Shown: positions 7,006 to 62,412 of the stretch, piece after piece
Numbering within the stretch: the stretch's first letter is position 1
Layout of the letters: each line of letters starts with the position of its first letter
From: Halobellus captivus
Lineage (GTDB): Archaea; Halobacteriota; Halobacteria; Halobacteriales; Haloferacaceae
Direction of reading: 5' to 3'
Length of the DNA stretch: 64,000 bases
Assembly (NCBI RefSeq): GCF_007655485.1
Contig: NZ_VJXQ01000002.1
Span: 62,001 to 126,000, forward strand
The notes under the pieces: generated by a model
Told to the model about the DNA's origin: nothing
Database searches by the model: none
The model's input: the letters and a program-made list of their open reading frames with translations, nothing else
Made by a program: the position numbers and the translations under genes

Positions 7006-8112
7006 GTGACAACGCTGGTCCTCTGCGTCGACCGATCCAACGACATCGGTCGAACCGCCGGGTTGGAGCTTCCAATTGTCGGGTGGGAGGCCGTTCAATC
7101 CCTCGTGACCGACATCGGACTGGTCGACCCGGAGGATTCGAGCGTCAACTGCTTACTGGAGACGCTGCGCGTCGCCCGCGGCCTCCGCGACGGCCGCGAG
7201 GAGACCGTCGTCGCTGTCGTCTCCGGCGGCAGCGACTCCCTGGTGAGCGCGGATCGTTCGCTGTCGGCACAGGTGGACGCCCTCGTCGACACCTACGATC
7301 CCGACTCGGCGATCGTCGTCATCGACTCGGCCAACGACGAGCGCGTGGTTCCGGTCATCGAGAGCCGCGTGCGGATCGACTCCGTCGACCGGGTCGTCGT
7401 CCGCCAGGCGCACGACATCGAATCGACCTACTACCTCCTCAAGCAGTTCTTGGCGGATGAGGAACTCCGCGCGACGGTTCTCGTCCCGCTCGGTGCGACG
7501 CTGCTTCTCCTTCCGATCCTCCTCACGCAGTTCGCCCCGGCGGTCGCACTGGCGAGCATCGCGGCGCTCTTGGGTGCGGTGCTTCTGTACAAGGGACTCG
7601 CGATCGACGAACTCCTCTCGGAGGTTCCGGAGCGGGTCCAGGAGGCGTTGTACTCCGGCCGTGTCTCCGTCGTCACCTATGCGGTCAGCCTCGGACTGGG
7701 GCTCGTGGGTATCTTTCTCGGTGCGCTCTCGGTCTCGCCGCAGGTGGGCCCCGAGTCGGTCGTCGTCCGGACGATGCAGTTCACTTACAGCGCCGTGCCG
7801 TGGCTGGCGCTCGCCGCGCTCACCGCGAGCGCCGGTCGACTGCTCGATGAGCTCATCGGCACCGACGGGATCAGCACGCCGTATCTGAACCTCCCGTTCG
7901 GGGTCATCGCGCTCGGGTTGGTCGTCCGCGGGTTCGCCGGGTGGTTCCTTCAGCGGGAGGCCGTCCTCGCCGACCCAGTCCTGTGGCGGTTCGTGGTGAC
8001 TCCCCAGCAGCGGCTCGCGGCGTTCATCGTCGCTGGAATCGTCGTCAGCGTCGTCGGCGTCAGAGTCGCCGCGAGCGTCAGCGGCGAGTCAGTCGAGGAC
8101 GTCCCACAGTAA
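7006..8112 (+). CDS. DUF373 family membrane protein
   Basis: The 368-residue protein begins MTTLVLCVDRSNDIGRTAG, the usual start of the archaeal DUF373 family. A soluble alpha/beta N-terminal domain spans about residues 1-150 with the SGGSDS and VIDSANDERVVP segments. Six or so hydrophobic segments follow from about residue 155 to 355. The family function is unknown. The GTG at 7006 is preferred because the family begins there and a TATA-like element lies 30 bp upstream. The last codons, encoding VEDVPQ and the stop, form the first unit of a 25-bp tandem repeat that continues beyond the gene. Confidence 0.88.
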   Translation: MTTLVLCVDRSNDIGRTAGLELPIVGWEAVQSLVTDIGLVDPEDSSVNCLLETLRVARGLRDGREETVVAVVSGGSDSLVSADRSLSAQVDALVDTYDPDSAIVVIDSANDERVVPVIESRVRIDSVDRVVVRQAHDIESTYYLLKQFLADEELRATVLVPLGATLLLLPILLTQFAPAVALASIAALLGAVLLYKGLAIDELLSEVPERVQEALYSGRVSVVTYAVSLGLGLVGIFLGALSVSPQVGPESVVVRTMQFTYSAVPWLALAALTASAGRLLDELIGTDGISTPYLNLPFGVIALGLVVRGFAGWFLQREAVLADPVLWRFVVTPQQRLAAFIVAGIVVSVVGVRVAASVSGESVEDVPQ

Positions 8113-8191
8113 GTCGGTCGACGATATCGCACAGTATGTCAGTCGACGATATCGCACAGTAAGTCGATTGAGGACGTCGCGCAGTGAATCG
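8092..8191. repeat. Four tandem 25-bp repeats built on the 3' end of the DUF373 gene
   Basis: Four units run without gaps at 8092-8116, 8117-8141, 8142-8166 and 8167-8191. Read from its own first codon, each unit encodes a variant of the gene's tail: VEDVPQ-stop (TAA), VDDIAQ followed by TAT, VDDIAQ-stop (TAA) and IEDVAQ-stop (TGA). Because 25 is not a multiple of three, successive units lie in different frames. Only the first unit is in frame with the gene. Confidence 0.9.
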
Positions 8192-8232: not shown

Positions 8233-9057
8233 TCACCACGGGGCGTAGTCGGGATCGACCTCCCGCTCGGTCCGGTCGATGGCGTCGATGGCATCGATGT
8301 CCCCGTCGTCCAGGTCGACGTCCAGCGATCGCCAGTTGTCGAGAATGTGCGATTCGCTCGTCGCCTTCGGGATCGCCGTCACGCCCTTCTGACGGAGCCA
8401 CGCCAGCGACACCTGCGCCTCGCTCACGTCGTGCTTCTCGGCGATCTCGGTCAGTTCCGGGACGTCGAAGACCTTCCCGCGGGCCAGCGGCGAGTACGCG
8501 ACGAGTTCGACGTCGCGCTCGGCGCAGTGTTCGCGGAGCGCATCCTGTTGCAGCAGCGGGTGCATTTCGACCTGATTGGCGAATATCGGCGTGTCGGCGG
8601 CATCGATCGCCTCGTCGACCTGTTCGGGGAGGAAGTTGCTGATGCCGATACGGTCGACCTTTCCGTCGTCGACCAGTTCGTCGAACGCGCGGAACGTCTC
8701 CTCGGGGTCGTAGTCACCGGCGGGCCAGTGAACGTACAGCAGGTCGACGGAGTCGACGCCGAGTCGTTCCAGGCTCTCTTCGGTCGATGCGAGCACGTCG
8801 GCGTATCCGAGCTTACTGGTCCACACCTTCGTCGCCAGGAAGACGTCTTCGCGGGGGACGTCGGCGGCGGCGATTCCGCGCCCGACACCCTCGTCGTTGC
8901 GGTAGGCCTGTGCGGTGTCGACGTGTCGATAGCCCGCGTCGAGCGCGGTCGCGACGCTCTGTGCGCACTCGTCGGGATCGTCGTTCTGCCACGTTCCGAG
9001 GCCGAGCACCGGCATTCCGTTCGTGAGCGGTGCGCGTCGCTGCCCGTGAGAACTCAT
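8233..9057 (-). CDS. Aldo/keto reductase
   Basis: The 274-residue NADPH-dependent reductase has a TIM-barrel fold. The catalytic tetrad is visible as D47 (HVDTAQAY), Y52, K77 (ATKVW) and H110 (YVHWPAG). The NADP-binding end has IPKATSESHI. The sequence is closest in style to bacterial 2,5-diketo-gluconate reductase-like enzymes; the substrate is not inferable. ATG at 9057 is chosen because the first barrel hairpin follows within ten residues; an upstream ATG at 9141 would add an Arg-rich extension typical of antisense GC-rich DNA. The gene converges with the DUF373 gene and its repeats. Confidence 0.9.
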   Translation of the reverse strand: MSSHGQRRAPLTNGMPVLGLGTWQNDDPDECAQSVATALDAGYRHVDTAQAYRNDEGVGRGIAAADVPREDVFLATKVWTSKLGYADVLASTEESLERLGVDSVDLLYVHWPAGDYDPEETFRAFDELVDDGKVDRIGISNFLPEQVDEAIDAADTPIFANQVEMHPLLQQDALREHCAERDVELVAYSPLARGKVFDVPELTEIAEKHDVSEAQVSLAWLRQKGVTAIPKATSESHILDNWRSLDVDLDDGDIDAIDAIDRTEREVDPDYAPW

Positions 9058-9163
9058 ACGCGAGTGGAGGCCCGCCGACCGGTTAGGCGTTTGGGCGGCG
9101 GGCCGCCGAATCACTCGGCTCATCGGTCGATCTCGGCTCACCGATAACTCTTTGCCAGCGGCG

Positions 9164-13444: not shown

Positions 13445-13818
13445 GTGGCTAAGGGATACCCTTGGATCGAAGAAAAGCCTTCTGAAAGCCCTTGAAAAAA
13501 GGGACGGTTCCGGACCCACAGAACTGCACGAATATGGGATAAAACGCGGCGATGAGACCGATCAGAGATGATAAATGGCAGATATTGCGGGTAAAATTGG
13601 ACATCAATCCATCAACGTGCTCTCCGAAGATAGTGGGGACAGCGCGCGTGCCCGATCCGATATCATCGGTGACGATATCGCGATGACGTTCCATCGGTGA
13701 CGAGGCCACGGAGACGGTCCACCGGTGACGAGATCACGGAGACGGCCCACCGATGGCGACACCAAGCAGGCGGCCGCGGAAGGCAACTGACTTTTCATCG
13801 GCCCTCGAATCCGCTCGT
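13445..13818. other. 374-bp divergent gap with a tandem 28-bp repeat
   Basis: The gap separates korA (leftward) from the flavoprotein gene (rightward) and should hold both promoters. I see no gene. Near the right end is a duplicated 28-bp unit (see the repeat entry), preceded by the related string ATCATCGGTGACGATATCG at about 13664-13682. Confidence 0.6.
13690..13757. repeat. Tandem 28-bp repeat (about 2.4 copies)
   Basis: Units at 13690-13717 and 13718-13745 differ at four or fewer positions and share CGGTGACGAG and CACGGAGACGG. A partial third unit (CCCACCGATGG) follows at 13746. An in-frame ATG at 13753 lies in this third unit and is not used as the start of the next gene. Confidence 0.8.
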
Positions 13819-44542: not shown

Positions 44543-44571
44543 CCGGCCTCGACGGGCCCAATCAAATCGGC

Positions 44572-44624
44572 CGCGTCGTTGGTGAGGCTGTTCACGCCCG
44601 CGTCGTTGGCGAGGCTGTTCACCG
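44572..44624. repeat. Tandem 27-bp repeat between tupC and the nuclease gene
   Basis: Units at 44572-44598 and 44599-44625 share CGCGTCGTTGG(T/C)GAGGCTGTTCAC and differ at about two or three positions. They lie 30 bp past tupC. On the minus strand the unit encodes VNSL(A/T)NDA in frame, but no real gene is seen there. Confidence 0.75.
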
Positions 44625-62340: not shown

Positions 62341-62412
62341 TTCGAAGACTTACACCAGGCACTCGCAGACAGACATCAACAGCTGGCAGACTTACACCAG
62401 CGATTCGTAGAC
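62341..62412 (-). repeat. Duplicated 3' tail of the UDP-sugar dehydrogenase gene
   Basis: AGACTTACACCAG occurs at 62346-62358 and 62388-62400, 42 bp apart. Read on the minus strand, the inner copy encodes the gene's last residues VYESLV and its TAA. The outer copy, 14 codons downstream and in the same frame, reads VCECLV followed by TAA. It looks like a duplication of the gene end including its stop codon. Confidence 0.75.

Follow-up and report, generated by a model that had tools for sequence, protein, structure and literature searches.

Four 25-bp Units at the End of a DUF373 Gene

The 64,000-nucleotide stretch of the Halobellus captivus genome studied here (contig NZ_VJXQ01000002.1, positions 62,001 to 126,000 of the forward strand; hereafter the window, numbered from its first letter) contains a gene of the DUF373 family (PF04123) whose 3' end is present in four tandem units. 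The encoded protein matches PF04123 over residues 3-349 with 361.6 bits, against a family cut-off of 28.3. The locus, on an 810-kb contig of a 3.35-Mb Halobellus-type genome, is organized as follows.

7006-8112, plus strand: DUF373 gene (PF04123), 368 aa, GTG start, C-terminal end ...GESVEDVPQ* in Unit 1
8087-8111, plus strand: Unit 1 (U1), the present coding end, with the TAA stop at 8110-8112
8112-8136, plus strand: Unit 2 (U2), non-coding, TAT at the stop position, 2/25 differences from U3
8137-8161, plus strand: Unit 3 (U3), non-coding, TAA at the stop position
8162-8186, plus strand: Unit 4 (U4), fossil of the ancestral gene end, KSIEDVAQ* with TGA, 2/25 differences from the tail of the sister species
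8187-8191, plus strand: partial fifth unit, AATCG (compare the unit start AGTCG)
8233-9141, minus strand: aldo/keto reductase gene (PF00248), the convergent 3' neighbor, also downstream of DUF373 in the sister species

The four 25-bp units, reported in an earlier note made from the sequence alone, were recovered by Tandem Repeats Finder (TRF; period 25, 4.0 copies, 8087-8185, score 107, no indels) and by a separate repeat search (copies beginning at 8088, 8113 and 8138); when the surrounding 600 bp was shuffled 2000 times under a Markov model, the TRF score never reached 100, the highest being 93. Head-to-tail copies with a constant period beyond chance expectation are in keeping with a minisatellite array. 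The earlier note had placed its start at 8092, about 5 bp late, and had read the stop position across U1 to U4 correctly as TAA, TAT, TAA and TGA. In the window the gene ends GAG TCA GTC GAG GAC GTC CCA CAG TAA, and the units differ per 25 bp at 5 (U1-U2), 5 (U1-U3), 6 (U1-U4), 2 (U2-U3), 7 (U2-U4) and 9 (U3-U4) positions.

With a period of 25, which is not divisible by three, and a stop codon within the first unit, the array is not a simple protein repeat, as had been recognized, and an amino acid tandem repeat (aaTR) was rejected. The accompanying description of shifting frames needs a correction for U4, which three periods (75 bp) on returns to the gene's own reading frame, although the TAA of U1 closes that frame. 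Readthrough of this TAA, the sole internal stop in the frame from U1 to U4, would join U4 after 25 codons and yield a longer protein with an ancestral-like tail, ...SKSIEDVAQ*. We consider this exceedingly improbable: three periods are in frame automatically, only a short stretch is involved, the site has no known readthrough signal, and the orthologues end at a single tail.

The Fourth Unit Is the Ancestral Gene End

The DUF373 genes and their 3' flanks were compared across a genus sample of 17 Halobellus genomes, all of which carry the gene (17/17); besides the source genome, 15 have a readable 3' end, while that of locus L018 is masked. No second strain of the source species was found. Orthologues in genomes named Halobellus are 83-91% identical. 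An array is present in 0 of the 15 readable orthologues, each of which has a single tail, typically GAG TCG ATC GAC GAC GTC GCG CAG TGA in the nearest species. The gene end of the sister species (genome G009, DUF373 locus L007) matches U4 at 23 of 25 bases and U1 at 19 of 25, and MAFFT places it on U4, from where the alignment continues through the common 3' flank to the aldo/keto reductase gene. Three units (75 bp) were therefore gained upstream of the old stop. This gain of roughly 75 bp is specific to the source lineage; U4 is the fossil of the old coding end and U1 is the present one. The comparison, which had been proposed as a check, thus bears out the idea of a repeatedly duplicated gene tail.

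U1, U2 and U3 have three derived changes in common, namely ATC to GTC (Ile to Val), G to A at the third position of an Ala codon, and TGA to TAA. Since these kept the protein and the stop, they probably arose while the common ancestor copy of the three units was the coding end. The suggestion that each copy once served as the coding end accordingly stands for U1, U4 and the common ancestor of U1-U3, and is unproven for U2 and U3 separately. The tail of L007 contains the heptamer GAGTCGA, which recurs exactly 25 nt later across its stop; this 7-nt pair may have been a plausible seed for the first slip, although it could possibly be due to chance.

Haloarchaea recombine freely, and with differences between units of up to 36% (9/25) one might suppose that homologous recombination had brought in units from several species, or that a mobile element had delivered them by integrating where the gene ends. 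Such an origin is very unlikely, given the exact spacing of 25 bp, the absence of any element, integrase or other insert between the units, and the lack, in all the species sampled, of a gene end identical to U1 or to U2/U3. A mobile or dispersed element was also rejected on the distribution of the unit: BLAST finds it at one place in its own genome, and a search of 170 genomes of the family that tolerated up to 2 mismatches in 20 gave no other tandem occurrence.

The gene order beyond the array also varies within the genus. Most congeners (L003-L013) carry a different convergent gene directly after DUF373; it is absent from this position in the window and in L007, where the aldo/keto reductase gene is found instead.

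A Large Class of Short Arrays

Well over a hundred repeats of this kind are scattered through the genome, young, about 22 bases in length and for the most part untranslated. Our census covered 1.67 Mb of the source genome G000 (contig C12 and most of contig C1), with arrays called by TRF and genes by a simple home-made caller based on codon usage; other haloarchaea entered the comparison as samples. Wholly between genes lie 145 arrays in 269 kb of non-coding DNA, where about 2.7 are expected under a Markov-1 model. Stop codons are crossed by a further 35 arrays (2.3% of 1502 genes) and start codons by 5, the latter count being rough since gene starts were taken from the home-made caller. The roughly 180 arrays that are intergenic or span stops on these two contigs have periods mostly of 17-32 bp. 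Inside genes the period is a multiple of three in 222 of 249 arrays, as expected if damage to the reading frame is purged, and outside genes periods are evenly spread in this respect.

Density is highest in convergent intergenic regions (0.96-1.08 per kb) and lowest in divergent ones (0.49-0.50), the pattern that protection of promoters would produce. The location of the DUF373 array in a convergent region, the type with the highest density (~1 per kb), could be taken to favor units that are functional, whether as a series of sites for a binding protein, as a terminator of transcription or as a 3' untranslated region with structure. We regard this as improbable, as the array is absent from all related species examined and the unit, as stated above, is in tandem nowhere else in the family genomes. 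At the array there is no terminator-like site when searched for intrinsic terminators and T-tracts, the predicted RNA fold is weak (z -1.48), which does not indicate a structured RNA or terminator, and no Rfam family scores above its cut-off, a single match elsewhere being at chance level (15.2 bits against a cut-off of 50).

Arrays of period 14-40 per non-coding kb number 0.40-0.59 in the source genome and 0.33 in the sister genome, 0.05 and 0 in the haloarchaea G182 and G190, 0.055 in Sinorhizobium pSymB and 0.06 in E. coli. Sampled loci of other haloarchaea give 0.15-0.24 per kb, so that lineages vary.

Age and Preferred Length of the Arrays

Of 44 source arrays whose flanks are syntenic in G009, 42 have no array there, and gaps that contain arrays exceed their G009 counterparts by 66 bp in the median, whereas the median difference for 166 array-free gaps is 0 (Mann-Whitney p=1.6e-8). 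The arrays were therefore mostly gained since the split of the two species. The source genome also has a real preferred repeat length, with a peak at 20-28 bp, which is evident in a lag analysis free of any TRF score threshold: runs of at least 10 identical bases number 90 at lags 20-24 and 61 at lags 25-29, compared with 15-34 per shorter bin and 8-25 per longer bin. When the period is subtracted from the length of the matching stretch in 53 young two-copy arrays, the median is -1; values of 4 or more make up 34%, with a tail to 19. Many duplications thus took place without need of flanking homology while some may have used it, a mixed picture in which microhomology as the sole cause was not adopted.

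Codon Positions and the History of the Units

Across the seven full codons of the units (21 columns), 8 columns are variable; 5 of them are third codon positions, the other 3 are first positions, and none is a second position. With the register fixed by the gene, the probability of no second-position and at least five third-position changes is ~0.004, although these columns include the coding copy's own history; when changes are assigned by eye to the now non-coding branches only ~5 remain, four of them at third positions (P ~0.045), a number too small for a decision. Such a pattern invites the view that every copy was in turn the coding end, all duplications having occurred in the first copy, so that the array would be an ordered record with U4 the oldest and U1 the newest unit. 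The match of U4 to the orthologue end, the three coding-compatible derived changes of U1-U3 and the lack of second-position variation all agree with it. However, U2 and U3 are only 2 bases apart and may stem from a later, non-coding duplication, and there are conflicting sites, with unit position 5 grouping U1 with U3 and position 11 grouping U1 with U4.

The wider class speaks against the ordered record as well. We ran the proposed count of codon-silent substitutions on 32 stop-spanning arrays from the source genome and G009. Between the coding copy and the next, mismatches at codon positions 1, 2 and 3 amount to 19/141, 25/152 and 37/166 (0.135, 0.164 and 0.223; p=0.12), and between a non-coding copy and the next to 17/81, 17/88 and 22/94 (0.21, 0.19 and 0.23; p=0.79). 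The earlier note's account of mostly synonymous or conservative differences between units is right for the DUF373 array. In the class, substitutions between non-coding copies are spread evenly over codon positions, so it is not generally the case that every copy was once coding. A stop persists in 24 of 32 second copies and, among copies further along, in 11 of 18, but such stops are kept because the copies inherit them, and there is no sign that downstream copies are used. Non-coding duplication suffices to account for U2 and U3, and a history in which every unit took its turn as the coding end appears rather doubtful. The same ordered reading, applied to other arrays with a G009 orthologue, was rejected; at C12:205112 the opposite is seen, with the coding copy equal to the orthologue and the distal copies changed.

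Proposed Origin and Comparison with Known Repeats

We conclude with good confidence that the array is a young, lineage-specific minisatellite, formed as the final 25 bp of the DUF373 coding sequence, stop included, underwent tandem duplication several times in succession. Most likely it is selectively tolerated and was born of repair, and it needs no function. A break- or replication-slippage repair event would copy some 20-28 bp in tandem, this being the preferred copy length. When the stop is part of the duplicated stretch, translation ends within the first copy, so that the protein hardly changes and the duplication can persist, hence the presence of arrays at gene tails; selection would presumably be neutral toward such copies. 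The original end (here U4) would stay behind as non-coding DNA, while the newest upstream copy would become the coding end and drift under weak protein constraint. Duplications of this kind build up between genes and across stop codons, and seldom across start codons.

Several points weigh against this minisatellite scenario and should be kept in mind. Ordinary slippage does not explain the preferred length of 20-28 bp. Simple neutral drift predicts neither the unusual codon-position pattern at the array nor the observation that U4, the oldest non-coding copy, is the least changed, although the numbers are small in both cases. Finally, the home-made gene starts make the start-spanning count rough. 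We offer more tentatively, as a possibility still short of an even chance, that a novel duplication process is at work, with a set copy length of ~20-28 bp and often little or no prior homology, filling the chromosome and leaving fossils of old gene ends at stops.

The closest known kind are the tandem repeats of Borgs (Schoelmerich et al., 2023; PMC9879509), which likewise have unit lengths near 20 nt and independent recent origins, begin in the ends of open reading frames, and have lengths divisible by three in genes and mostly not outside. Borg units are perfect, A-rich, in at least 3 copies and on giant extrachromosomal elements of methanotrophs (PMC9879509), whereas the arrays described here are imperfect, mostly of 2-4 copies, and on a GC-rich haloarchaeal chromosome. 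The DUF373 array starts in the last codons of its gene and is flanked by a partial unit (AATCG), as in Borgs; its four units span 100 nt, above the 50 nt used for Borg repeats, but differ at 2-9 positions per 25 bp, and it lies on a contig of a Halobellus-type genome instead of an extrachromosomal element of Methanoperedens. Variable number tandem repeats and minisatellites in general are also short tandem units that vary between lineages, usually in non-coding DNA, but the arrays here are set apart by repeat lengths concentrated at 20-28 bp and by the many cases in which a stop codon is included.

With respect to mechanism, fill-in of staggered breaks in mammalian cells produces short tandem duplications through Ku-dependent end joining (PMC8355091). 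These are below 100 bp and need no prior repeat, similar to the many young two-copy arrays here in which the match length equals the period. That route needs Ku, however, and no Ku was found in the 17 congeneric genomes, on which ground Ku-dependent end joining was rejected as the source. Archaeal primase-mediated microhomology joining, for which the reported indels are mostly 1-2 bp (PMC12019639), is a possible route. In Haloquadratum walsbyi, short direct repeats (4-19 bp) go with indels between close haloarchaea (PMC3119063), these being mainly deletions, in contrast to the lineage-specific gains seen here. A prokaryote satellite survey (PMC6749651) reports for Halobacteria mainly in-gene repeats with lengths divisible by three, and as far as it was read holds no description of imperfect intergenic arrays of two to four copies. 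Searches of open-access papers gave no description of such a class in haloarchaea.

Taken singly, the DUF373 array is ordinary in function, a neat but modest example of a gene whose tail has shifted into a new duplicate, leaving the old end behind. The class carries more weight. In non-coding DNA the chromosome has about 0.5 short tandem arrays per kb; where a check was made nearly all proved specific to the species, and their lengths are narrowly spread. This suggests a mutational process that is open to study in a culturable haloarchaeon, and the abundance and length preference merit a proper survey. Such a process would in part explain why intergenic DNA turns over so fast from one species to another, and could give rise to regulatory or C-terminal novelty.

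Further Arrays in the Window and in Other Genomes

Four other arrays were observed in the window. Those at 297-380 (period 34) and 13658-13775 (period 28) have no counterpart at the syntenic place in G009. The array at 44571-44622 (period 27) is 96% identical, the syntenic gap in G009 measuring 449 bp, and an imperfect array at 62342-62400 (period 21, 2.8 copies) lies across the 3' end of a minus-strand gene. In G009 itself, a stretch of contig C2 at ~981.7 kb (G9:111656-111704) holds a perfect 25-bp two-copy duplication of a gene tail including the stop, GACGACATCGTCGAGGGGGAGTGAG, apparently of very recent origin. The lineage of Salinarchaeum laminariae (L078) may also be rich in such arrays, with four of them in 7 kb around its DUF373 gene, of periods 14-23 and one spanning a stop.
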